33,330 nt of DNA from Marinosulfonomonas sp. (GTDB taxonomy: Bacteria > Pseudomonadota > Alphaproteobacteria > Rhodobacterales > Rhodobacteraceae). The notes beneath the pieces are model-generated. The model did not search any database. It saw nothing but the letters and a program-made list of their open reading frames with translations, and had not been told where the DNA came from. The first letter of the stretch is position 1. Every line of letters begins with the position of its first letter. Position numbers and translations under genes: made by a program. This document shows positions 4,149-27,261 of this stretch, piece by piece. The stretch lies in NCBI GenBank assembly GCA_030625325.1, contig DAOURA010000010.1, positions 1 through 33,330 on the forward strand. Reading direction: 5' to 3'.

Positions 4149-4586
4149 TCAGGTGTCCAGCCAGATCGTAACGGGGCCGTCGTTCACAAGTGATACGGCC
4201 ATGTCGGCGCCAAATTCACCGGTTTGAACCGGTACGCCAAGTTCGTGCAGTTCACGGGCGAAAAGTTCATACAGTTCCCGCCCCCTGTCCGGGGCGGCGG
4301 CGCTGGAAAAGCCGGGGCGATTGCCGCGCGAGGTATCGGCGGCCAATGTGAACTGGCTAACCACCAGTGCGCTGGCGCCAATGTCCAGCAGGGATCGGTT
4401 CATTCGGTCCGCGTCATCGCGAAAAATCCGCAGCTTGGATATTTTGCTGGCCAGAGTGCCGGCGTTTGTTTCTGTGTCGCCCTGCATTGCGCAGATCAAT
4501 ACCAGCAAACCGCCATCAATTTTTGCGATAACATCGCCACCCACAGTGACCGAGGCGTGGCTGACCCTTTGAATTAGTGCCCGCAT
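4149..4586 (-). CDS. dtd: D-aminoacyl-tRNA deacylase (DTD)
   Basis: DTD hydrolyses D-amino acids mischarged on tRNA, a cytoplasmic proofreading step. The 145-residue product has the usual length and opens [17 protein letters not shown]. It carries the family motif [20 protein letters not shown], containing the SQFTL cross-subunit segment. Near the C-terminus [20 protein letters not shown] matches the Gly-cisPro-like NxGPVT region ([11 protein letters not shown]). The reading frame stays open upstream to 4679, but MRALIQRV at 4586 is the family start. It lies 46 bases after the zinc-ribbon gene on the same strand, so it may be the last gene of that operon. A clear intrinsic terminator follows. 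Confidence 0.95.
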
Positions 4587-4632: not shown

Positions 4633-5721
4633 TCATTGCTGGGTTGAGACATAATAGGCGATGGCAGCAATGATTGCACTGATGATCAGCACCGCAAAGG
4701 TGATCTTCCAGGCCGACCAGGGCCGTTCCCCCTGCACCCGCCCGGTGCGCCCGTTCACCACAAAGCGATAGCTTTTGCCCCGGTATTTATAGGCCGCCAG
4801 CCAGACCGGCAGCAGTACGTGTTTAAAGGTCACATCACTGGTCGTGGTCCGGACCTTATGGATCCTTTGGCGATCGCCACCGATGTCATTGCGCACATCG
4901 CCCCGGATTACCCCATCCATGTGGGCGCGGGCCTCGGTATAGGCATCTACCAGTTCAACGGTGTAGCCCTCGGCGCGAAACCCGGCCAGAAATTCGGGGC
5001 GATAGGGGGCCAGTTTGTCCAGATCCCAGGGTTGCAGCGCATCCGTGTATCGTTTCGGAAGCGACTTTGACGCCAGCACCAGCACGTCATTGAACCAGCG
5101 CGCCACCCGCCCGGAAACCGAATTCCACCGTACCTTTTGCACCTGACGTTGTTCAGATTTACCATCACGTTGCACGGTTTCGGTGACGTAGTATTCGGTG
5201 CCCCGTTCGCCGCGATAGGTGCTTTTGGTGTCGGCGTCAAACGTCCAGTAGGGCACGTAAATGCCTTCCAGTTTTCGCCCCTTGCGGGCGTATTCCTGCA
5301 ACCCGTTTGGCGCAAACCACAGGCGGCCCAGCCATTTGGTCATGGCGTCGCGCCCGTCTTTTTCATCCAGGGCGAAGGGTAAAACGCCCTGTGGTTTTAT
5401 CTGGCGGTGGGTGCCGGTGTCGGTGACAACCGGGGTGGCGCAAAACGGGCATTCCGCCGCGTGATCGACCGAATTAAATTCAACATGCGCCCCGCAATTT
5501 GGGCAGGACAGAACCCGAATTTCTTCGATGTCACGGGCGGGCAGGGCGGCATCAATTGCGCGCTGATAATCCAGCTCGGCAATCTTGTCTCCCTTGGCCC
5601 CGCCTGTCGGGATATCCTGATCGCCACCACAATGATCACACGATAATTTGCCCTGATCCGGGGCAAAGCGTAAATCACTGCCGCATGTGTCACAGGGAAA
5701 CCTGTGTTCCTGATTGGCCAT
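4633..5721 (-). CDS. Double zinc-ribbon protein with C-terminal membrane helix
   Basis: The 362-residue product has two N-terminal treble-Cys ribbons. Cys10/13 pair with Cys28/31 (CDTCG and CDHCGG), and Cys73/76 with Cys91/94 (CPNCG and CPFCA). A middle domain of about 200 residues follows ([20 protein letters not shown], then [20 protein letters not shown]). A single hydrophobic segment at the C-terminus ([20 protein letters not shown]) should anchor it in the inner membrane. Close relatives are often misnamed 'primosomal protein N, superfamily II helicase'; no helicase motif is visible. The start at 5721 has GGA 9 bases upstream; it begins 17 bases after the SPFH gene stop. Zinc-ribbon partners of SPFH/TelA genes are known from Ter-type stress neighbourhoods; the biochemical role is unknown. 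Confidence 0.85.
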
Positions 5722-5738
5722 TTGGTTTTCCGATCGGC

Positions 5739-6836
5739 CTATCCGGCAGGTGGCGGCGGTGGGGGCGGCATGACGGTGAACAACTGGGCCAGTTCCATCA
5801 CGTCCTGTGCCTTGATCCATCCGTCCTGTCCGGCAGTCCAGACCATGCTGGCCCGGCTTAGGCCGCCATCACCTGCCATCCGCCCCATTGCGGCCCTGGA
5901 AAATGGTCCTGTGGTTTGGCCGTTCTCGGCCACATGCCAGACCTTTTCAACCGGTGGCGGGGGTGGGGCCATCGCCGCGGGGGCAACCTGTGTTTGCATG
6001 TTTTGCGCCATTGCCATGCCCATGCCCATGCCCATACCGGCGGCCATTCCACCACCGGCGGGGTTTTGGGCGGCTGTGGTCATCGCCTCGGCTGCGGAAA
6101 ACTGGGTGAATTTGCCCAGATCCCCCGCCAGCCCAATTGATGTGCGTTTATCAAGAACTGCTTCAACGGCAGGGGGCAGGCTGATGTTTTCGATATATAG
6201 CTCGGGCATGTTTAGCCCGTATTGTTCCAGCGTGCCGGAAATTTCGGCGGCGATCAGCTTGCTTAGGTCACCCGTGTTGGCGGCCATATCCAGAACCGGA
6301 ATGCCACTGCCCGACACCACGCGCGAAAATTCCTGCACGATGATGTTGCGAACCTGAAAACTAATCTCGTCCATGGTGAATTCGCCGTCTGTACCGACGA
6401 TTTCCGTCAGGAACCTTGCGGCGTCCGACACCCGGACCGAATAGGTGCCATAGGCGCGCAGGCGCACAGGCCCAAATTCGGGGTCACGGGCAATGATCGG
6501 GTTCTTGGTGCCCCATTTCAGATCATTAAAGCGCGTTGTGTTGACGAAATAGATTTCGGATTTGAACGGCGACTGAAACCCGTGATCCCAGTGGTTCAGG
6601 GTGGTCATGATCGGCATGTTATTGGTTTCCAGCATATACATGCCGGGGGTGAACACATCTGCCAACTGGCCTTCGTGGATGAACACCGCCGCCTGACCGG
6701 CCCGCACGGTTAGTTTGGCACCGTATTTAATTTCATGATCTTCGCGTTCAAACCGCCAGACCATGGTATCGCGGCTGTCATCCACCCAGTGGATGACGTC
6801 AATAAATTCGTCGGTCAGAAAATCCAGAATACCCAT
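5739..6836 (-). CDS. SPFH-domain protein (YdjI-like) with C-terminal GYF domain
   Basis: Residues about 1-270 form an SPFH/band-7-like domain of the YdjI type. They begin MGILDFLTDEFIDVIHWVDD, followed by GAKLTVRAGQAAVFIHEGQL and FSRVVSGSGIPVLDMAANTG. A low-complexity linker rich in Gly-Met and Gln (GMAAGMGMGMGMAMAQNMQ) and a proline run (APPPPPVEK) follow. The C-terminus is a GYF_2-type domain (VWHVAENGQTTGPFSRAAMG ... MVWTAGQDGWIKAQDVMELA) ending in a Pro-rich tail. SPFH proteins assemble membrane-associated scaffolds and GYF domains bind Pro-rich peptides, so this protein may recruit partners to a membrane platform; that is inference. AGGAG lies 7 bases before the ATG. Homologues are sometimes labelled 'virion core protein', which is misleading. 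Confidence 0.9.
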   Translation of the reverse strand: MGILDFLTDEFIDVIHWVDDSRDTMVWRFEREDHEIKYGAKLTVRAGQAAVFIHEGQLADVFTPGMYMLETNNMPIMTTLNHWDHGFQSPFKSEIYFVNTTRFNDLKWGTKNPIIARDPEFGPVRLRAYGTYSVRVSDAARFLTEIVGTDGEFTMDEISFQVRNIIVQEFSRVVSGSGIPVLDMAANTGDLSKLIAAEISGTLEQYGLNMPELYIENISLPPAVEAVLDKRTSIGLAGDLGKFTQFSAAEAMTTAAQNPAGGGMAAGMGMGMGMAMAQNMQTQVAPAAMAPPPPPVEKVWHVAENGQTTGPFSRAAMGRMAGDGGLSRASMVWTAGQDGWIKAQDVMELAQLFTVMPPPPPPPAG

Positions 6837-6862
6837 TATTCATCTCCTAATTTTTTGTTGTT

Positions 6863-7813
6863 CTAACTTTGCCCGCCCAGCAGTTCATTGGCAATCACTT
6901 CTGCCTGTACGCGTGCCGTGTCGGGGGACATGCCCGGCACCATTCGGGGGTCATACAGCATGCGCAACAGCAGTTCGTCGTGGTTGGTCAACAGGCCGAA
7001 TTCTTCGTCGTCGTTAAACACCGATGGTCGCGCCGCCGGGCTGTCGTTTGACAGGCCCAGCCCTTGGGCAATTTCTTCGTGGATGCACGACAGGCGCATC
7101 AGGTCGGGGTGTTCACCACGAATGATTGCCAGCGCCTGACTATAGGTGCCGGTTGCACCGGGATCCAGCGCCAGCACCAGACAAAAGGTTGAGCGCGCCA
7201 TATCAATGACGGCTTTCAGGGCGGCTTCGTCAATGCCCGGCAGAATTTCACGAATTTGCGGGGCAAGGGCGCGACGTTCGGCTTCGTTCACCACGAAAAC
7301 ATGGAAATTTGCGCCATCACGCACCTGACGGATGGGCAATTTGGTAACCCGCGACAGGCGGGCCGCGTAAGTCACGATATTGCCGCGGTCCAGCGTCTTT
7401 TGTGCGGCGGGTATGCTGGCGCCAAACTTAACCTTCATGCGGATCGGTTCGGCCCATTTGCGCAGCTGGCTGGACGTTTGGCGCGCCACAATGCGCCCGC
7501 CAATGGATGCATATTCGTCAAACAGGGCGATGCGCACAAAATTATCCACCAGATTGCGGGTCGTGATCGGGGTATCCGGCCCGCCACCGTCCTGACGTAA
7601 CAACCCCTGGGTCAGCAGGCTGGACTGCACCCGGCCGTAATAGCGCGACAAGGCCAGGCTTTCGGCGGTCGGGCCGTTGGTGCCGTCATCCATAATGTCG
7701 GGCGGGTTGGGGGACGCCGGGCCTTGAAATGTGCCAATGTCACACCCGGCCAGCCCCGTTAAAAAGGCGGCCAGAATGACCTTGCGCGCAATGCTTGTGA
7801 ACCCGGTTATCAC
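6863..7813 (-). CDS. DUF2927 lipoprotein with HExxQ motif
   Basis: The product has a lipoprotein signal peptide (basic IARK, then VILAAFLTGLAGC with lipobox LAGC at residues 21-24). A DUF2927-type domain follows. Its best segment is SCIHEEIAQGLGLSND, followed by VFNDDEEFGLLTNHDELLLR and MLYDPRMVPGM. The HEEIAQ stretch resembles a metallopeptidase HExxH site with Gln in place of the second His; catalytic activity is untested. The frame extends to a TTG at 7846 inside telA, but the GTG at 7813, 7 bases after the telA stop, gives a normal signal peptide of 23 residues, so I prefer it (316 residues). Neither start has a strong ribosome binding site, which suggests translational coupling to telA. 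It is probably attached to the outer or inner membrane facing the periplasm. Confidence 0.8.
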   Translation of the reverse strand: MITGFTSIARKVILAAFLTGLAGCDIGTFQGPASPNPPDIMDDGTNGPTAESLALSRYYGRVQSSLLTQGLLRQDGGGPDTPITTRNLVDNFVRIALFDEYASIGGRIVARQTSSQLRKWAEPIRMKVKFGASIPAAQKTLDRGNIVTYAARLSRVTKLPIRQVRDGANFHVFVVNEAERRALAPQIREILPGIDEAALKAVIDMARSTFCLVLALDPGATGTYSQALAIIRGEHPDLMRLSCIHEEIAQGLGLSNDSPAARPSVFNDDEEFGLLTNHDELLLRMLYDPRMVPGMSPDTARVQAEVIANELLGGQS

Positions 7814-7820
7814 CCTGTTG

Positions 7821-9014
7821 TCAGCTTTGCGAAACCGAGGTGCCAACGTTGTCGCCGGTGCCGTCCTTGCGGGCCTTGGCCGAGGCCAGTGTATCCTTCA
7901 GTTCAACCTCCATTTTTTTCAGTTCAACTTCTGCGGCGGTGCGGTTGCGCTTACCTTCGTCCGCGATCGACAGGCTGTCTTCAATCGTGGCAATCAGTTC
8001 TGCGTTGGCAACCTTGATGGCCTCAATATCAAACACGCCGCGTTCCATTTCTTCGCGTACCGTGCGGTTGGCTTGCCGTAGGTTCTTGGCATTGGCTGTC
8101 AGTAATTCATTGGTCAGGTCATTGGCGTCTTTGACGGCGGCTGCGGCCTCGGCTGAACGCTGAATGGTGACGGCCTGTGCCAGTTGGGTTTCCCACAGGG
8201 GCACGGTATTGACCAATGTTGAATTGATCTTGGTGACCAGTGATTTGTCATTTTCCTGAACCAGCCGGATTGATGGCAAGGATTGCATTGTCACCTGACG
8301 GGTCAGTTTCAGATCATGCACCCGGCGTTCCAGATCATCACGCGCAGCACGCAGGTCGCGCAATTCCTGCGCCCGCATCACGGCCTGATCTTCTGGCGCG
8401 TCTTCCACGGCCTTTTCAAGGGCAGGAATATCGCCCCCATCCAGTTCTGCCAGTTTTTCTTCACCGGCCGTTATATACAGTGCCAGTTCATCATAAAATT
8501 CCAGCGTCTTTTCATACAGAACATCCAGTGATTTGATGTCTTTCAGCAGGGTGTGTTCATGGGCCAGCAGATTATCAGTTACCATATCCAGTTGTCCCTG
8601 AACGGTTTCAAACCGGGCCACGAATCTGGCAAACGGGGCTGCGCGCCCCAACAGTTTTTCCCACAGGGAACGCTTGCGCCGCACGTCCAGTTCGCTGATC
8701 GAAAACCCCCGGATGGTGGTGACAATTTCGCGCAGTGAATCCCCCGCAGGGCCGGCGTCTTTGTTGCGCACATCGGCCAGCATGGATTGGCTGATTTCCT
8801 GCAACTCGGCCTGCGCGGCCGAGCCAAAACTGATGATTGACCCGGTGTTTCCCATGTCAATTTCGCCCATGCGCTTTTTGATGCCCGCGGCAAGGGGTGC
8901 GTCGGCCTCGGCCAATGGCACCAGTGCTGTGGCGGGTTCGGGCAAATGGACGGCTGTTACTTCTTCCAGCATTTTCAGATCACTGGCGGCCTTTTGGCGA
9001 ACTGTCTCGGTCAT
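7821..9014 (-). CDS. telA: Toxic-anion (tellurite) resistance protein, TelA family
   Basis: The 397-residue, largely alpha-helical soluble product matches the TelA/KlaA family. Diagnostic stretches are IISFGSAAQAELQEISQSML, ELDVRRKRSLWEKLLGRAAP, VTMQSLPSIRLVQENDKSLV and VNTVPLWETQLAQAVTIQRS. Long helices suggest coiled-coil assembly (QAVMRAQELRDLRAARDDLE). TelA proteins are tied to tellurite and other toxic-anion or envelope stress, but their biochemistry is unresolved. I chose the ATG at 9014, preceded by AAGGA. It follows the XpaC-like gene by 16 bases, and overlaps nothing downstream if the DUF2927 gene starts at 7813. Confidence 0.92.
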   Translation of the reverse strand: MTETVRQKAASDLKMLEEVTAVHLPEPATALVPLAEADAPLAAGIKKRMGEIDMGNTGSIISFGSAAQAELQEISQSMLADVRNKDAGPAGDSLREIVTTIRGFSISELDVRRKRSLWEKLLGRAAPFARFVARFETVQGQLDMVTDNLLAHEHTLLKDIKSLDVLYEKTLEFYDELALYITAGEEKLAELDGGDIPALEKAVEDAPEDQAVMRAQELRDLRAARDDLERRVHDLKLTRQVTMQSLPSIRLVQENDKSLVTKINSTLVNTVPLWETQLAQAVTIQRSAEAAAAVKDANDLTNELLTANAKNLRQANRTVREEMERGVFDIEAIKVANAELIATIEDSLSIADEGKRNRTAAEVELKKMEVELKDTLASAKARKDGTGDNVGTSVSQS

Positions 9015-9030
9015 GGGGTTTTTCCTTATT

Positions 9031-9924
9031 TCAAATGTCGCGGGTACGTACGCCTTCGCGCTCAAGGCGCTCTCGCAGGACGTCAATTTCAATGGTCATG
9101 TCGGATTTATTATCCAACAAAAGGGTCTTGGTGCGGGCGGCAAAGTTTTCTTCCAGATCGTTCAACAGGGCCTCGTAATCTGTGCGCGCACTGGCATCAC
9201 GGGTGCGGGCATAAAGATCGGCAAACTTGGTTGTCGCGTCCCGCGCACCCTGTAAATACACCCCCATAAAGCGGCGCGCGGCTGTCAGGTCACGGGGGTC
9301 TTCTTCCACCGTTCTGAACATGTCGCGCGCGGTGTCGGCAAAGCCATCCACCCGGTTTTCCAGTGCCCTGTCCCCGGCGCGCAAAATCGCGTCTTTCATC
9401 GCCGTCAGATGTTTTTCGCCCTCACCCACAACGCGCGCAACCCGGTCTTGTTGAAAGGTATCGATCCCTTCCATGCCCTTGTCGTGCATCGGGTCAAAGC
9501 CAAACGAAAAACTGTGCAGTATCAGCCCAAGCCCACCAAATATCGCCGGGTTCACCCAGCCGGTGCCAGACGCATAAACAGCCGCAAACAACCCCGCCCC
9601 GGTCAATACTGACCCAAACATTTTGCGGGGCAGGGCAGGGCGGCGGGCAATTTTGCGTGCCTGATATGCTTCCTGTGCCAGAATACCTTCGCGTGTCAGC
9701 CAAGCGGCCAATAACAACAGGCCCAGACCCGCCAGTGTAAAAACCAGTGCGGTCGGTTCCTGCATAAATGCGCGAATTGCCAGTGGTAAAGGCACAATAA
9801 ATAACAGGTTCACCCGCCCGCCAGCCCGCGAACGGCGCTTGCCATGCCACGGGTCGGCCGGGGTCTGGCCATCATCGGGGTCTTGCCCTTCGGGGCTGAA
9901 ATCACCGCCAAAACGTTCTGCCAT
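9031..9924 (-). CDS. XpaC-like (5-bromo-4-chloroindolyl phosphate hydrolysis family) membrane protein
   Basis: The 297-residue product has a short charged N-terminus, then hydrophobic segments LLFIVPLPLAIRAFM, ALVFTLAGLGLLLLAAWL and FGSVLTGAGLFAAVY with a following WVNPAIFGGLGLILHSF. A cytoplasmic helical domain follows (MEGIDTFQQDRVARVVGEGE ... FMGVYLQGARDATTKFADLY ... LLNDLEENFAARTKTLLLDN). This matches XpaC-like proteins, which almost always accompany TelA. The ATG at 9924 has GGGGGGA 5 bases upstream. The start overlaps by one base (TGATG) the stop of a 27-residue upstream reading frame, implying coupled translation. The family's enzymatic name comes from an old phenotype and should not be taken as a known reaction. 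Confidence 0.85.
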   Translation of the reverse strand: MAERFGGDFSPEGQDPDDGQTPADPWHGKRRSRAGGRVNLLFIVPLPLAIRAFMQEPTALVFTLAGLGLLLLAAWLTREGILAQEAYQARKIARRPALPRKMFGSVLTGAGLFAAVYASGTGWVNPAIFGGLGLILHSFSFGFDPMHDKGMEGIDTFQQDRVARVVGEGEKHLTAMKDAILRAGDRALENRVDGFADTARDMFRTVEEDPRDLTAARRFMGVYLQGARDATTKFADLYARTRDASARTDYEALLNDLEENFAARTKTLLLDNKSDMTIEIDVLRERLEREGVRTRDI

Positions 9925-10007
9925 CAGTTCCCCCCGGTCACGGCAACATATAAAACAGTCGCCACCAGCAGAACAAATGCAAGCTTTTGTAACCCTGTTT
10001 CTGTCAA
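9924..10007 (-). CDS. 27-residue single-helix membrane microprotein, TTG start
   Basis: This short frame begins with TTG at 10007, preceded by a perfect GGAGG (10017-10013) 5 bases upstream. It encodes MTETGLQKLAFVLLVATVLY and seven further residues ending GGN, that is a charged/polar start and a 15-residue hydrophobic stretch (LAFVLLVATVLYVAV). Its TGA overlaps the ATG of the XpaC-like gene by one base (TGATG). The strong ribosome binding site has no other plausible start to serve, and the hydrophobic pattern fits a single-pass inner-membrane peptide. I do not recognise a family. It could alternatively be only a leader frame that sets translation of the downstream gene. Confidence 0.65.
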   Translation of the reverse strand: MTETGLQKLAFVLLVATVLYVAVTGGN

Positions 10008-10049
10008 TTATGCCTCCGTTGCAAAACTATTTTTTGTAACAATACCACA

Positions 10050-10077
10050 TATATACATTGCACAGGGCGCTTTTCAC
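10050..10077 (-). promoter_or_regulatory. Candidate promoter for the XpaC-TelA part of the module
   Basis: On the minus strand GTGAAA (10077-10072) and TATATA (10055-10050) are separated by 16 bases, about 43 bases upstream of the microprotein TTG. The stretch is clearly AT-richer than its surroundings. A short imperfect stem (CAGGG/CCCTG, about 10063-10081) overlaps the -35 and could instead be a weak end signal for terC. I treat the promoter as tentative. Confidence 0.35.
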
Positions 10078-10086
10078 CCTGCTGCA

Positions 10087-10908
10087 TCAGCCAGTGCTTT
10101 TCCCGGATGACCGCTCAGCGTTCAGCTTGCGCGAATAGCCCGATTGCAAAACTTCGACCGCCACCAGAACCAGCACTGAAAAGTAAAAGGTCGATTTCGA
10201 CATTGGGATCAGATCATGACCGAACAACTTTATCTGCAAACTGTCGTCATGCATGGCGTGGGCTGCGGCAGGCCCGGCCTCGCCCAGCAGAACAACACCG
10301 ACGATCAGCAAAATAAACAGGCCCAGAACTTCGTACATGCGGTTCTTTTGCAAAAACACCGTCACCCCGTCTGCCAGCGCCAGCATCGCCACCCCGGACG
10401 CCAGAATGGCAATTGCCAACACCGGGAACACATCGGTTATTGCAAGGGCCGACAGGATGGAATCAAAGCTGAATACCAGGTTCATAATAACAATCGTCGT
10501 CACCACGCCCACGGCGGATTTTCCGCGTGATGGGGTCATATCGGTGTGCAGATCCTGAATGGACAGCATATGCCCGATTTCCTTGACGGCCGTATACATG
10601 ATGAACACGCCGCCAACCACGAAAACGCAGGTCGCAAAATTGATGCCGCCTTCGATAATGCCGGGAAAGTTGAACACATAAAACGGGGTGCTCATCGCGT
10701 CGATCAGACCGATCATGACAAACAGTAAAACCACCCGCAGGGCGACGGCGATCAGGATGCCCCAAAATCGCACAGATTTTTGTTGGGCCTTGGGGGCGTT
10801 TTGGCTTTCCAGCGAAATATACAAAAGGTTGTCGAACCCAAGAACCGCCTGCAAAAAGAACAGCATCAGCAGATTACCAAGATTTTCCAGTGTAATTAGA
10901 TCAGCCAT
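10087..10908 (-). CDS. TerC-family integral membrane protein
   Basis: The 273-residue polytopic protein has TerC signatures with acidic residues inside helices: LQAVLGFDNLLYISLESQN near the N-terminus and MNLVFSFDSILSALAITDVF in the middle. About seven to eight hydrophobic segments are visible. TerC-type proteins are implicated in metal (notably manganese) export and tellurite resistance; the conserved intramembrane Asp residues fit metal handling. Three possible starts exist at 10938, 10911 and 10908. I chose 10908 because GGGGG lies 7 bases upstream and MADLITLENLGNLL is the usual family start. It is the first gene of the minus-strand module that includes XpaC-like and TelA genes, 79 bases upstream of the microprotein. 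It may form the membrane centre of that system. Confidence 0.92.
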   Translation of the reverse strand: MADLITLENLGNLLMLFFLQAVLGFDNLLYISLESQNAPKAQQKSVRFWGILIAVALRVVLLFVMIGLIDAMSTPFYVFNFPGIIEGGINFATCVFVVGGVFIMYTAVKEIGHMLSIQDLHTDMTPSRGKSAVGVVTTIVIMNLVFSFDSILSALAITDVFPVLAIAILASGVAMLALADGVTVFLQKNRMYEVLGLFILLIVGVVLLGEAGPAAAHAMHDDSLQIKLFGHDLIPMSKSTFYFSVLVLVAVEVLQSGYSRKLNAERSSGKSTG

Positions 10909-11006
10909 CATCCGGCCCCCTGTTTTTCTTATGAACAAACCAGATCAGATACCCGGCGACAAGGGAAACCCTGTTGGATATTCCCCATATTATCGCGAAA
11001 AACCGC

Positions 11007-11789
11007 TTATTTCCGGCGGCTTGGCTGGCGCTTGCGGACGGGTATCTGGCTTGGGGCCGGGGCCATGCCCAACTGATCGCGTACCACCCGTTGCTTTACC
11101 TCTTCCACGTCCCCCGGTTTCAGGTCGCGCAGCTGAAAGGGGCCGTAACTGATACGGATCAGCCGGTTCACCTTTAGGCCGATCACTTCCATCGCGCGGC
11201 GGATTTCACGGTTTTTGCCTTCGCGGATACCAATTGTGATCCAGGCGTTGGCACCCTGCTGGCGGTCGTATTTCACTTCCATCGGCTGAAATCTTTCGCC
11301 TTCATGGGTGATGCCCGCGCGCAAGGGGTTCAGGGTTTCATCCGTTGGCCGCCCGTTTACGCGCACCCGGTATCTGCGGGTCCAGCCGGTTGATGGCAGT
11401 TCCAGCTTGCGCTTGACCTCGCCATCATTGGTCAACAACAACAACCCTTCGGAATTCAGATCAAGACGCCCGACCGACATCACCCGGGGCAGGGTGTCAG
11501 GCAGCGCATCAAACACCGTGTCGCGCCCCTTTTCATCGGCGGTGGTTGTGACCAGCCCGCGTGGCTTATGATATAGCCAGATGCGCGCGGCGTCCGGTTC
11601 GCCCACTTCTTTGCCATCCACCACGATTTGATCCGCCGCTGTTACGTTCAGGGCGGGGCTGCTGATTTTTTTGCCATTGACCGTAACACGGCCTGCTTCG
11701 ATCATCCGTTCGGCTTCGCGGCGCGAGGCAAGGCCTGCACGCGACATTACCTTGGCGATCCGGTCGCCCTTTGGGGTGTCTTTTTCCAT
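11007..11789 (-). CDS. rluB: 23S rRNA pseudouridine synthase RluB
   Basis: The enzyme isomerises a uridine (U2605 in E. coli numbering) of 23S rRNA. An S4 RNA-binding domain occupies residues about 10-60 (RIAKVMSRAGLASRREAERM and VTVNGKKISSP). The RsuA-type catalytic domain follows with the active-site motif GRLDLNSEG, nucleophile Asp110. Further motifs are KPRGLVTT and EGKNREIRRAMEVIGLKVNR. At 260 residues it lacks the long C-terminal extension of some relatives but ends in a basic tail (QIPVRKRQPSRRK) typical of RluB. RsuA or RluE are less likely given S4 and the tail. It is divergent from tadA, with 74 bases between starts, and lies upstream of terC on the same strand. Confidence 0.92.
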   Translation of the reverse strand: MEKDTPKGDRIAKVMSRAGLASRREAERMIEAGRVTVNGKKISSPALNVTAADQIVVDGKEVGEPDAARIWLYHKPRGLVTTTADEKGRDTVFDALPDTLPRVMSVGRLDLNSEGLLLLTNDGEVKRKLELPSTGWTRRYRVRVNGRPTDETLNPLRAGITHEGERFQPMEVKYDRQQGANAWITIGIREGKNREIRRAMEVIGLKVNRLIRISYGPFQLRDLKPGDVEEVKQRVVRDQLGMAPAPSQIPVRKRQPSRRK

Positions 11790-16174: not shown

Positions 16175-16576
16175 AACGCGCGGATGGCTGGATGGCTGCG
16201 GGGCGAAAGCCGCGAGGAAAGTCCGGACTCCATAAGGCAATGGTGCCGGGTAACGCCCGGCCGGGGAAACCCGAGGGAAAGCGCCACAGAGAACAAACTG
16301 CCGCCCGTCGGGTGGTAACGGTGAAAAGGTGCGGTAAAAGCGCACCGCGGGACTGGCAACAGGACCGGCACGGCAAGCCCCACCAGGAGCAATGCCAAAT
16401 AGGGGCCTTACGCGGGGCTGGTCCGGCAACGGAAACCGCCCGCAGGGACGTCTTAGCCCAAAGGCCCGGGTTGGCAGCTAAAGCGTACTGGTAACAGTGC
16501 GCGTAGATGAATGGTCATCCAGGGGCAGGGCAACCTGCCCTGGACAAGATCCGGCTTACAGGCCGTCCGCGCATAT
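16175..16576 (+). ncRNA. rnpB: RNase P RNA (bacterial type A)
   Basis: This is the catalytic RNA that removes 5' leaders from tRNA precursors. Hallmarks are GAGGAAAGTCCGGACTCC near the 5' end (P4 left strand region), ACAGAGAACAAACTGCCGCC in the middle, GGTAAGAG-type variant GGTAACGGTGAAAAGGTGCG, and the conserved 3' segment AGATGAATGGTCATC followed by ACAAGATCCGGCTTACAGG. The ends pair as P1: GCGCGGATGGC near 16178-16188 with GGCCGTCCGCGC at 16561-16572. Ends are estimated to within a few bases. Reading frames across this stretch are not genes. Confidence 0.95.
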
Positions 16577-24393: not shown

Positions 24394-25776
24394 ATGGGTG
24401 ATAACTTCGTCACAGAGGAAGAGCGTGAAGAAGACGCTTATGTGCTTGATAAGGGCACAGTTCAGGCCATTCTGGGTGCGGTTCAAACCGGTGATTCTGA
24501 CGGCCTGACGTTGTTGATGGAACCCCTGCACGCGGCTGATATTGCCGACCTTCTGGAACAGATCAGCAGGCCCGATCGCCGCGATCTGGTACAGCTGTAC
24601 GACCGGGAATTTGACGGTGAAATTCTGTCAGAGCTGGACGAAGGCCTGCGCAAAGAAGTTATCGATGCGTTGCACCCACAGGTTCTGGCCGATGCGGTCA
24701 GGGACCTGGAATCAGACGACGTTGTTGACCTGCTTGAGGACATGAACGTCCCCCAGCAGGTTGCCCTTTTAGATGTTTTGGAAGACGTTGACAGGGTCGC
24801 GGTTGAACAGGCGCTGACCTATCCAGAATATTCCGCCGGGCGTTTGATGCAGCGCGAAGTCGTCATGGCGCCAGAGCATTGGAATGTGGGTCAGGCCATT
24901 GATTTTCTGCGAAAATCAGCCGTTCTGCCCGAGCAGTTTTATCACCTTCATCTGGTTAACCCAAAGATGGAGCCGGTGTCCTATGTTACCCTTGGTCGCC
25001 TGCTGTCGTCCAAACGCGGTTGCCCGCTGGTTGATATCACCGAAGACAGTTTTCGCACCTTCGACGCCACCGAGGACGAGGCCGATGTTGCCTATGCCTT
25101 CAACCAGTACCACCTGATTTCAGCGCCGGTGGTGGACGAAAATCAGCGCCTTGTGGGCATGATCACCATTGACGATGCGGTGCAGGTTCTGGACGAAGAA
25201 CACGAAGAAGATATCCTGCGTCTGGCCGGGGTGGGCGAAAGCAGTCTGTCGGACAAGGTGATTGATACGACCAAGCGGCGTTTTCCGTGGTTGGCGGTTA
25301 ATCTGGTGACATCAATTTTGGCGTCACTGGTGATTGCCCAGTTTGAAGAACTGATCACGCAGTTTGTGGCGCTGGCGGTGTTGATGCCGATTGTGGCGTC
25401 GATGGGGGGCAATGCGGGCACGCAATCCCTGACGGTGGCGGTGCGTGCGATTGCCACGCGGGATTTGACCGGCGCCAACGTCTGGCGGGTGATGCGGCGC
25501 GAAGTTCTGGTTGGTCTGGTCAACGGTATGGTTTTTGCGGTCGTGATGGGGGGCGTTGGTGCGATTTGGTTTGGCACCCCGGTTTTGGGGGTGGTGATTG
25601 GGCTGGCGATGCTGGTCAATCTGGTGATTGCAGGGCTGGCCGGAATTTTGGTGCCGGTGACGCTGGAAAAAATCGGTATCGATCCGGCGCTGGCGTCGGG
25701 GGCGTTTGTGACAACTGTAACGGATGTGGTTGGTTTCTTTGCCTTTCTGGGGCTGGCCGCAATGATGTTGTTATAG
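24394..25776 (+). CDS. mgtE: Magnesium transporter MgtE
   Basis: MgtE is a magnesium-gated Mg2+ channel of the inner membrane. The 460-residue protein has an acidic N-terminal superhelical domain (HAADIADLLEQISRPDRRDL ... DDVVDLLEDMNVPQQVALLD). Two CBS domains follow (SAGRLMQREVVMAPEHWNVG and YHLISAPVVDENQRLVGMIT). The membrane part has about five helices with the pore signature LMPIVASMGGNAGTQSLTV and ends in GIDPALASGAFVTTVTDVVG. I chose ATG 24394, which has AAGGGG 6 bases upstream, over ATG 24370, which has none. The next gene starts 2 bases after the stop. Confidence 0.95.
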   Translation: MGDNFVTEEEREEDAYVLDKGTVQAILGAVQTGDSDGLTLLMEPLHAADIADLLEQISRPDRRDLVQLYDREFDGEILSELDEGLRKEVIDALHPQVLADAVRDLESDDVVDLLEDMNVPQQVALLDVLEDVDRVAVEQALTYPEYSAGRLMQREVVMAPEHWNVGQAIDFLRKSAVLPEQFYHLHLVNPKMEPVSYVTLGRLLSSKRGCPLVDITEDSFRTFDATEDEADVAYAFNQYHLISAPVVDENQRLVGMITIDDAVQVLDEEHEEDILRLAGVGESSLSDKVIDTTKRRFPWLAVNLVTSILASLVIAQFEELITQFVALAVLMPIVASMGGNAGTQSLTVAVRAIATRDLTGANVWRVMRREVLVGLVNGMVFAVVMGGVGAIWFGTPVLGVVIGLAMLVNLVIAGLAGILVPVTLEKIGIDPALASGAFVTTVTDVVGFFAFLGLAAMMLL

Positions 25777-25778
25777 GG

Positions 25779-26348
25779 ATGGGCGATCTGAGCGCACAAA
25801 AAGATGCGGCCCGCAAGGCGGCGTTTGGGCGGCGAAAGGTGGCCCATATGTCAGGGCTTGGTCAGGCCGCCTGTGCCAATCTGACGGAATTTCTTGCGCC
25901 CTATCTGGGTCAGCCAATATCGGCCTATATGGCGATCCGCACCGAAGTTGACCCCCTTGAGGTGATGAAAAAGCTGGACCTGATCGGCCCGGTTGGGGTG
26001 CCGGTTATTCAGGGTGCGCACAGGCCGTTGGAGTTTCATCGCTGGCGGGACGGCTGTGACATGCAGGACGGCCCCTTTGGGGCGCGTATTCCACGGGTTG
26101 ATGAGTTGGTTGTACCAAAGGTGGTGATTTTGCCGATGCTGGCGTTTGACTTGGCGGGGCACAGGCTGGGCTATGGTGGTGGGTATTATGATCGCACGCT
26201 TGAATTGCTGCGCGCGGCGGGTCCGGTTCTGGCCGTGGGGTTTGCCTATGGGGCGCAACAGGTTGAAAGCCTGCCGGTTGAGCCGACAGATCAGCCATTG
26301 GATGTGATTGTTACTGAGGCGGGGGTGTGCTGGTTCGGGCGCGAATGA
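25779..26348 (+). CDS. 5-formyltetrahydrofolate cyclo-ligase
   Basis: The enzyme converts 5-formyl-THF to 5,10-methenyl-THF with ATP. The 189-residue protein has the family N-terminus (KDAARKAAFGRRKVAH), the central YMAIRTEVDPLEVM and the signature VILPMLAFDLAGHRLGYGGG followed by YYDRTLELLRA. The ATG at 25779 is 2 bases after the mgtE stop, with AGGG very close, so translation is probably coupled to mgtE. The reading frame is open well upstream inside mgtE, but the family start is here. Confidence 0.94.
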   Translation: MGDLSAQKDAARKAAFGRRKVAHMSGLGQAACANLTEFLAPYLGQPISAYMAIRTEVDPLEVMKKLDLIGPVGVPVIQGAHRPLEFHRWRDGCDMQDGPFGARIPRVDELVVPKVVILPMLAFDLAGHRLGYGGGYYDRTLELLRAAGPVLAVGFAYGAQQVESLPVEPTDQPLDVIVTEAGVCWFGRE

Positions 26349-26354
26349 TTTCTT

Positions 26355-26388
26355 GCCTCCGGCGGGGATATTTGGACCAATTCGAATG
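26355..26388 (+). repeat. Single copy of the dispersed post-stop element
   Basis: GCCTCCGGCGGGGATA matches 4023-4038 exactly over 16 bases and continues TTTGGACCAATTCGAATG. It begins 6 bases after the cyclo-ligase stop, in the sense direction of that gene. The next gene is co-directional, and here only one arm is present. Confidence 0.6.
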
Positions 26389-26448
26389 TGGGTTTTTTGT
26401 CGGTAGGCAGGTCTTGCCAAGGCCGGTTGGGCGCAATAGGCCGGTGGT

Positions 26449-27261
26449 ATGAGAATACTTTTTTTAGGGGATGTGGTTGGGCGCGCAGGGCGCACCGCCA
26501 TCATAGAACGTCTGTCGCGGTTACGTGAAGACTGGCGTTTGGATTTTGTCGTGGTGAATGGCGAAAATGCCAGCAACGGGATCGGTCTGACCGGGGCCCA
26601 TGCCAAGGCGTTGCTGGGGGCCGGGGCGGATTGTGTCACCCTTGGGGATCACGCCTTTGATCAGCGCGACATGATGCAGTTTATTGATAGCGAGCCACGG
26701 GTGCTGCGCCCGCTGAATTATGCAAAAACCGCGCCGGGTAAGGGCGCGCGGGTTTTTGATGTGCCGGGGGGGCGCAAAATTCTGGTGGCGCAGGTATTGG
26801 GGCAGGTGTTCATGAAGCGCGCCTTTGATGATCCGTTTTCGGCCGTTGATCAGGTGATGCGCAGTCATCCGCTGGGCGGGCTGGTGAATGCCAGTCTGAT
26901 CGATATCCATTGCGAAGCCACATCTGAAAAGATGGGCATGGGGCATTATTGCGACGGGCGCGCCAGCGTGGTTGTCGGCACCCACACCCATGTGCCCACG
27001 GGGGATGGGGTGATCCTGCCCGGTGGCACGGCGTTTCAAAGTGATGCGGGCATGTGCGGCGATTATAATTCCGTCATCGGTATGGATAAGGTTGAACCAA
27101 TGCGCCGCTTTGTCACTGGTATGTCAAAGGGCCGGTTCAGCCCCGCCGAGGGCGAGGCAACATTGTCAGGCCTGTATGTCGAAACCGATGATCGCACCGG
27201 CAAGGCCAGCCGGGTGGTGATGGTGCGACAGGGCGGCCTGTTACAGCAATCAACACCGTGA
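26449..27261 (+). CDS. YmdB-family metallophosphoesterase
   Basis: The 270-residue product belongs to the YmdB/TIGR00282 family of calcineurin-like phosphoesterases, with 2',3'- or 3',5'-cyclic nucleotide phosphodiesterase activity in Bacillus YmdB. Metal-site motifs are visible: FLGDVVGRAGR (Asp8), VVNGENASNG (residues 37-40), LGDHAFDQ (66-68) and GTHTHVPTGD. In many relatives the third motif is GNH; GDH here is a substitution. The start at 26449 gives MRILFLGDVVG, the family N-terminus. The stop overlaps the next gene by 4 bases (GTGA), so the two are translationally coupled. Confidence 0.93.
   Translation: MRILFLGDVVGRAGRTAIIERLSRLREDWRLDFVVVNGENASNGIGLTGAHAKALLGAGADCVTLGDHAFDQRDMMQFIDSEPRVLRPLNYAKTAPGKGARVFDVPGGRKILVAQVLGQVFMKRAFDDPFSAVDQVMRSHPLGGLVNASLIDIHCEATSEKMGMGHYCDGRASVVVGTHTHVPTGDGVILPGGTAFQSDAGMCGDYNSVIGMDKVEPMRRFVTGMSKGRFSPAEGEATLSGLYVETDDRTGKASRVVMVRQGGLLQQSTP

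Follow-up and report, generated by a model that had tools for sequence, protein, structure and literature searches.

Gene content of the locus

The DNA analysed here is contig DAOURA010000010.1 of a Marinosulfonomonas assembly (2.28 Mb, 91% complete); the window is the entire contig of 33,330 bases. Its minus strand carries a run of genes in the order rluB-terC-microprotein-xpaC-telA-DUF2927-SPFH/GYF-zinc ribbon-dtd, as determined from open reading frames (ORFs) and profile scans. Five of these genes, xpaC, telA, DUF2927, SPFH and the zinc-ribbon gene, form a core that is kept together in the Rhodobacteraceae more often than chance would allow, and the microprotein in front of xpaC is a real coding gene that is tied to it. 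By analogy with the PspA-YdjGHI system of Bacillus, we on balance favour reading the locus as an inner-membrane maintenance or stress module built around TelA.

All coordinates below refer to the window, and all protein-coding genes listed lie on the minus strand. TelA (7821-9014) is a soluble long-helix protein that scores 350.4 bits against Pfam family PF05816, for which the cut-off is 30. Upstream of it lies xpaC (9031-9924; PF10112, XpaC / Halogen_Hydrol, 89.3 bits against a cut-off of 29.8), the product of which has four hydrophobic segments and a soluble C-terminal part according to hydropathy. The stop codon of the microprotein (9924-10007; 27 amino acids, a single transmembrane segment, TTG start behind GGAGG) overlaps the ATG of xpaC. 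On the other side of telA follow a DUF2927 lipoprotein (6863-7813; PF11150, 201.8 bits) with a GTG start and an LAGC lipobox, a protein (5739-6836) in which an SPFH domain (Band_7_1, PF13421, 330.9 bits) is continued by a Pro-rich linker, a GYF_2 domain (PF14237, 64.8 bits) and a poly-Pro C-terminal tail, and a double zinc-ribbon protein with a hydrophobic C-terminal segment (4633-5721), which was recognised by its Cys pattern and has Pfam zinc-ribbon matches below the cut-off. The gene for a TerC-family metal membrane protein (10087-10908, start alternatively at 10911 or 10938; Pfam TerC, 121.6 bits) precedes the microprotein by 79 bases. From xpaC onwards the intergenic gaps are 16, 7, 26 and 17 bases. 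These seven genes had been named in a first-pass annotation of the sequence; all were recovered at the same positions, on one strand and with short gaps, and rluB and dtd are now added to them.

Conservation of the gene block within the family

The family is the Rhodobacteraceae, whose members are mostly marine; 149 of its genomes were searched for TelA. Stretches of up to 20 kb around TelA were collected from 80 loci (71 genera with one locus each, and nine additional loci); with the window, this gives 81 family loci from 72 genera. TelA (PF05816) was found in 147 of the 149 genomes and in 72 of 73 genera, and the core genes XpaC, TelA, DUF2927, SPFH and zinc ribbon follow each other in the order of the window in 67 of the 81 loci. 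Taken singly, XpaC is present in 79 loci, DUF2927 and SPFH in 77 each, the zinc ribbon in 70 and TerC in 17. Median gaps, which are measured from profile starts and hence slightly long, are 36 bases for XpaC-TelA, 56 for TelA-DUF2927, 29 for DUF2927-SPFH and 146 for SPFH-zinc ribbon. A second set, the named loci, consists of the best 80 of 93 XpaC relatives; nearly all are from the Rhodobacteraceae, and they overlap partly with the other genome set. Among them, 63 of 80 have the five-gene core in order, and the closest relative by XpaC is a Marinosulfonomonas metagenome-assembled genome with 71% identity. The numbers for TelA and for the core order are more than chance, and the proposal of the first-pass annotation that the genes form one conserved unit thus stands: they are regularly adjacent in relatives.

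The exceptions are of several kinds. Among the 14 family loci that deviate from the core order, three reach a contig end (L045, L071, L083), four have no zinc ribbon within the stretch (L038, L103 and L104 of one genus, and L048), two are without DUF2927 only (L039, L047), one is from a genome without an SPFH match (L075), one is a decayed site (L077), and in the last three XpaC (L037) or SPFH (L086, L090) lies elsewhere in the genome. The 17 named exceptions comprise eight loci of Paracoccus, two of Amylibacter without DUF2927, and seven without the zinc ribbon, one of which is also without DUF2927 and SPFH. Recurrent extra genes in the family loci, placed by median position, sit between SPFH and the zinc ribbon or between the zinc ribbon and dtd; we take them to resemble a PfkB-type sugar kinase (34 loci) and, in 17 loci each, a cytochrome b561-type membrane protein and a nitroreductase.

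Splits, natural deletions and units outside the family

In all eight named Paracoccus loci (L178, L183, L192, L205, L208, L210, L212, L219), xpaC is found without TelA in the fetched stretch of up to 6 kb on each side. Four of these eight genomes were searched for TelA; all four have it, on a contig other than that of xpaC, and the order telA-DUF2927-SPFH-zinc ribbon is intact in all four Paracoccus telA loci tested. In L205 the gene directly after xpaC resembles truA. Three family genomes (G106, G011, G085) have neither an XpaC nor an SPFH match; TelA is absent from the first two and a fragment in G085. The site in G106 retains rluB-DUF2927-dtd, and that in G011 rluB-terC-DUF2927 up to the contig end. 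As a side observation, the XpaC-TelA(-SPFH) part has been deleted naturally in L292, L293 and L077, where rluB, terC or DUF2927 remain.

In a sample of 240 genomes of the class, XpaC (PF10112) was found in 15, including three from the family itself. From the others, outside the family, sixteen loci were fetched. Five of them, from four other families (L112, L113, L114, L118, L120), have XpaC-TelA-SPFH-zinc ribbon, and neither DUF2927 nor TerC was recognised in these five. Two more are XpaC-TelA (L116, L124), in another four a weak XpaC lies 1.7-1.9 kb from TelA (L115, L117, L121, L122), and the rest have XpaC alone (L119, L123, L125), a weak TelA alone (L126) or at most a weak XpaC (L127). In a sample of the phylum, the SPFH profile matched 32 of 200 genomes, some of the matches being to the GYF part alone and some to the SPFH part without GYF. 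For 14 of the 15 strong non-family SPFH loci the surroundings were fetched: a zinc-ribbon gene follows SPFH in 13 (two of them weak matches), the 14th runs to the end of its contig, and none of the 14 has a recognised TelA or XpaC beside it. It looks as if SPFH-zinc ribbon is the older pair, which XpaC-TelA joined in the class and to which DUF2927 and the microprotein were added in the family; this order of events is our inference. The two-gene SPFH-zinc ribbon pair, the four-gene unit without DUF2927 and the link of the microprotein to xpaC had gone unnoticed in the first-pass annotation.

The same comparisons supply the points that weigh against a single machine. XpaC lies ~200 kb from TelA in one genome (L037 / G006), and the two are apart in Paracoccus too. 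SPFH is ~13 kb from TelA in L086 / G110 and on a separate contig in L090 / G124, and G081 retains XpaC-TelA yet is without SPFH. The gap from SPFH to the zinc ribbon exceeds 150 bases in 34 of 70 loci, with inserts in many. DUF2927 is absent at the site in four of the 81 family loci (L039, L047, L077, L086); conversely it persists after the loss of XpaC, TelA and SPFH, in G106 by itself and in G011 together with terC. The operon copy is also not the sole one, at least two DUF2927 matches being present in 139 of the 149 family genomes. The relocations, the genes inserted on either side of the zinc ribbon and the survival of DUF2927 would suit a conserved neighbourhood of unrelated functions, in which rluB, dtd, DUF2927, xpaC-telA and SPFH-zinc ribbon merely travel side by side. 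We consider this rather unlikely, as G106 and G011 have lost XpaC, TelA and SPFH together, and of these three G085 has only the TelA fragment left. Moreover, the gaps in the window are only 7-26 bases, four other families have XpaC-TelA-SPFH-zinc ribbon in the same order, and telA-DUF2927-SPFH-zinc ribbon have stayed together after the Paracoccus split.

The microprotein upstream of xpaC

The microprotein is 27-29 residues long and consists of one helix. The scan looked for hydrophobic ORFs that end no more than 12 bases from a candidate start of the following gene; the start shown often falls inside the ORF. The microprotein was found before xpaC in 79 of the 81 family loci, and the remaining two lack xpaC itself, so that the count is 79 of 79. 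In the named loci the scan gave 75 of 80; the other five, all from Paracoccus, have the ORF ending 10-13 bases before the xpaC match, so that here the count is 80 of 80. All 20 within-genus loci carry it as well. The same scan upstream of TelA, DUF2927, SPFH and RluB returned 1 of 185, 1 of 146, 0 of 153 and 1 of 129 loci; upstream of the zinc-ribbon gene and of dtd it gave 16 of 140 and 10 of 90, which weakens the evidence somewhat.

The ORF has the signature of a coding sequence. The ratio of nonsynonymous to synonymous differences per site (pN/pS), calculated from sequence pairs that are not independent of each other, is 0.40 (78 pairs), 0.21 (28 pairs), 0.34 (3 pairs) and 0.29 (410 pairs, 72-97% identity) in frame, and 0.78-0.99 and 2.1-3.0 in the other two frames. 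Differences at the first, second and third codon position number 2154, 820 and 3884. The 79 family sequences share a central Leu (76), an aromatic residue, Phe or Tyr (76), a Gln before the helix (55) and a Gly-rich C-terminus. A longer form of 46-80 codons is possible in 23 of the 79 loci, with an extra hydrophobic stretch in those seen. Because 32 of the 79 have an upstream stop within 45 codons and so allow the shorter form alone, and because long and short forms both occur inside one genus, the short part is the general form.

The microprotein also follows xpaC when the operon is broken up. In Paracoccus it stands directly before xpaC in eight of eight loci, and none was found upstream of telA in the four telA loci; in G006, a similar ORF lies just upstream of the distant xpaC match. 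In three loci without xpaC, no such ORF was found. The microprotein noted in the first-pass annotation is therefore real: it is kept before xpaC, carries a coding signature and stays with xpaC in Paracoccus. One could still regard it as a leader, a short ORF with no working product that serves to couple translation into xpaC, and the stop that overlaps or almost touches the xpaC start in most loci is what such a leader would look like. However, the conserved Leu and Phe/Tyr, the low pN/pS values (0.21-0.40) and the hydrophobic helix throughout are features of a working protein, and seven of the eight loci from Paracoccus retain the sequence although 10-18 bases separate its stop from the xpaC match. 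We think the leader explanation unlikely. More plausibly, the microprotein would be a subunit or stabiliser of XpaC. That it is a detached transmembrane helix of XpaC is not favoured, XpaC having four hydrophobic segments in the five non-family loci and three or four inside the family.

Three short forms gave no Pfam or NCBIfam match up to E 10, and two long forms only sub-threshold matches. In the non-family loci L112, L113, L118 and L120 the scan did not find the microprotein, and L114 has an unlike ORF of 38 amino acids before xpaC. L118, from another family of the class, has a hydrophobic ORF of 26 amino acids further upstream of xpaC, with ATGW near its end; this could be a remote version of the microprotein and point to an older origin. 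Literature on small proteins in Rhodobacter and related genera contained no paper on the operon among the matches listed, and as far as the searches reach, the XpaC-linked microprotein is new.

The SPFH-GYF and zinc-ribbon proteins

The first-pass annotation had pointed to a Pro-rich tail beside the GYF domain, and the comparison bears this out: the C-terminal PPPxP is invariant in 15 of 15 aligned SPFH proteins, five of them from outside the family. PPP occurs within the last 25 residues in 148 of 153 loci, and the five misses look like cut genes. As a profile, the GYF domain matches the GYF_2 domain of Myxococcus AgmX (7z3c) with E 8.7e-9 and human GIGYF2 with E 0.0035. Unlike in AgmX, it is fused to an SPFH scaffold and placed between Pro-rich stretches, and it may plausibly bind the poly-Pro tail of its own protein. 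In the zinc-ribbon protein, which ends in a hydrophobic segment, eight Cys are invariant across all 17 aligned rows, and four CxxC within the first 170 residues were found in 122 of 140 loci.

A predicted matrixin fold in the DUF2927 lipoprotein

A structural model of DUF2927, built from 40 sequences, has a mean predicted local distance difference test (pLDDT) score of 87.7. Its best match in VIA-align is the matrix metalloproteinase (MMP) MMP7 (Z 12.1, root-mean-square deviation 2.6, 147 residues aligned), and all 50 rows are of the MMP type. Foldseek likewise places MMPs at the top ranks, with one snapalysin among 50 matches and a probability of 0.98-1.00 for the first ten. Two results speak against a matrixin relationship: the Foldseek E-value is 2.4e-3 at best, with none at or below 1e-3 and a query TM of 0.24-0.36, and an hhalign comparison with ten bacterial matrixins gave no profile-level link (probability 0.1, E 0.69). 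Because the profile comparison gave nothing, the link to the matrixins (M10; MMP7, karilysin) is one of predicted fold.

The lipoprotein had been described in the first-pass annotation as having a peptidase-like motif. However, HEEIAQGLGLSND is not a peptidase HExxH motif, and a reading of DUF2927 as an ordinary peptidase is not supported: HExxHxxG occurs in none of 146 DUF2927 loci. Instead, C..EE..Q..G..ND is found in 140 of the 146 and EE..Q in five more. The HE of HEEIAQ was also rejected as a zinc motif. In 17 distant loci a His never precedes EE, and EE..Q is kept in 16 of these (19 of 20 of all loci; L290 deviates). HExxHxxGxxH of the matrixins would correspond to EExxQxxGxxND in DUF2927. 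When the two are aligned via a shared LGL, in a register taken from the motif and not from coordinates, the positions of the three zinc histidines would be occupied by E246, Q250 and N256, and the catalytic Glu would be kept as E247. All 40 rows share Cys211 and Cys243. If the predicted fold is correct, DUF2927 would either bind no zinc, as a pseudo-protease or peptide binder, or hold another metal. The literature search for DUF2927 returned no paper among the matches listed; as far as the searches reach, a matrixin fold with a rewritten site is a new reading of this family. As a separate observation, one stretch of ~20 kb (G306:C1:46652-66787) holds seven DUF2927 matches, some of which may be pieces of one gene.

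TerC as an accessory

The name 'Ter-like', which the first-pass annotation had given to the module with TerC as a core part, is a misnomer because TerC is optional: its presence in 17 of the 81 family loci makes it an accessory, and it was rejected as a core part. No TerC scores above the Pfam cut-off in 41 of 81 genomes. A TerC of the score class of the window (122-136 bits) was found in 22 of the 81 genomes and lies within ~4 kb of TelA in 21 of them; the remaining one, G011, has no TelA. This close association, together with the finding that TerC proteins of B. subtilis metalate exported enzymes (PMC10550928, as far as the accessible part of the paper goes), could mean that the locus is a module for manganese (Mn) homeostasis or exoenzyme metalation, in which TelA, XpaC and SPFH would act in support of TerC and the Sec translocon. 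We judge this quite improbable, since TelA is nearly universal in the family and TerC is missing from most loci, and since no Mn riboswitch was found in the window at Rfam gathering thresholds. A classical ter-type tellurite resistance operon, which the names TerC and TelA would suggest, is very improbable: no TerD-type protein was found among the ten proteins of the window locus that were scanned, and its near-universal presence in a family suggests a housekeeping role.

Neighbouring genes and other features of the window

The gene for an rluB-type pseudouridine synthase (11007-11789) is kept as the upstream neighbour in 65 of the 79 family loci that have xpaC. At the other end, dtd (4149-4586; D-aminoacyl-tRNA deacylase, TIGR00256, 179 bits) lies 46 bases from the zinc-ribbon gene. 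It is found within 54 of the 70 family loci that have a zinc-ribbon gene, with a median gap of 957 bases, and is a conserved neighbour that probably does not belong to the machine. A promoter and terminator scan gave roughly the number of sites expected from shuffled sequences (5 against 4.6, and 15 against 11.5). Elsewhere in the window, an Rfam scan identified a bacterial RNase P RNA of class A at 16180-16574 on the plus strand (279.9 bits), and the GC skew of 0.21-0.24 at 25001-27000 is strong relative to the remaining contig.

Comparison with known membrane-stress systems

Two systems offer a comparison, both taken from the accessible parts of the papers cited. YdjI, the SPFH protein of B. 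subtilis, is a predicted soluble protein that depends on the transmembrane proteins YdjG and YdjH, and the membrane foci of PspA are lost on deletion of ydjI, ydjG or ydjH (PMC8581546); YdjG is described as combining two zinc ribbons with a YpeB-related domain and a transmembrane segment (PMC11237479). In L. lactis, an XpaC-like gene and telA1 are induced 10.3-fold and 3.44-fold on membrane-protein overproduction, are putative members of the CesSR envelope-stress regulon, and their double deletion partially impairs growth under these conditions (PMC3139573). The window resembles pspA-ydjGHI in that one operon holds a YdjI-type SPFH protein, a double zinc-ribbon transmembrane protein and a cytosolic helical protein. 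The link to YdjI-type SPFH proteins, which the first-pass annotation had drawn, is upheld by the Band_7_1 score of 330.9 bits and by the YdjI-PspA data; the assignment is by profile, not by direct comparison with YdjI. The zinc-ribbon protein is likened to YdjG by layout alone (eight Cys and a hydrophobic C-terminus). Unlike the Bacillus operon, the window has TelA in place of PspA, an SPFH tail of GYF and poly-Pro in place of a zinc ribbon, and XpaC, the microprotein and DUF2927 in addition. A YdjH-type TPM domain was not found, as there was no Pfam match to it among the ten locus proteins scanned (E 0.01). With llmg_1115-1116 of L. lactis it shares XpaC and TelA in one operon; that organism is Gram-positive, and the accessible part of the source names no SPFH, zinc-ribbon or DUF2927 gene beside the two. 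TelA, XpaC, TerC, SPFH and zinc ribbon are known families; their combination is a variation on a known kind of system, and no paper on the operon was among the literature matches listed.

TelA could occupy a place like that of PspA because of the YdjI/YdjG/YdjH-PspA data, because of the L. lactis xpaC-telA data, and because PspA (PF04012) was not found in the assembly of the window (91% complete); in the family it occurs in 48 of 149 genomes, in 47 of them over the cut-off. The remaining points against a PspA-like module concern this step. PspA coexists with the TelA module in those 48 genomes. The L. lactis xpaC-telA deletion left the membrane protein at about its normal level; most mutants did not differ significantly, the affected ones being ftsH, oxaA2 and rmaB (PMC3139573, accessible part). 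The structural model of TelA (mean pLDDT 75.2; helices 127-205, 208-323 and 330-384) has ClyA/Ahl-type and other helical bundles as its best matches, with Z up to 12.4, which is uninformative for long helices, and a best Foldseek E-value of 6.4e-3. The absence of PspA from the listed fold matches was counted as no evidence, and the model indicates a helical protein, nothing further.

A proposed membrane-maintenance module built around TelA

The mechanism that we infer for such a module, with its interactions, its localisation and its function in stress, would be as follows. XpaC with its four transmembrane helices and the microprotein of 27-29 residues would form a membrane seat for TelA. The SPFH protein would oligomerise at the membrane, tethered there by the zinc-ribbon transmembrane protein, and its GYF domain, by binding its own poly-Pro tail or that of a neighbour, could net the scaffold together. 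This scaffold may help to direct TelA to membrane that is damaged or crowded with protein. The DUF2927 lipoprotein would sit on the periplasmic side, most likely as a peptide-binding sensor that is non-proteolytic or differently metallated. TerC, where present, may contribute Mn handling at the Sec translocon. A narrower version, in which the locus is a TelA-based, PspA-independent membrane-repair machine with the microprotein of XpaC as an obligatory part and a pseudo-matrixin lipoprotein acting on it from the periplasm as peptide sensor or other-metal enzyme, is more tentative, and we regard it as doubtful.

TelA and XpaC proteins are widespread and are named after accidental phenotypes. The Rhodobacteraceae supply a nearly fixed genetic unit for them, with a list of partners that can be tested. 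A standing subunit such as the microprotein, for the three short forms of which there is no Pfam or NCBIfam model and the position of which is as constant as that of its neighbours, may well be missed by genome annotation. If the matrixin fold with a rewritten metal site is true, DUF2927 would become a defined question: which metal, or none, and which ligand.

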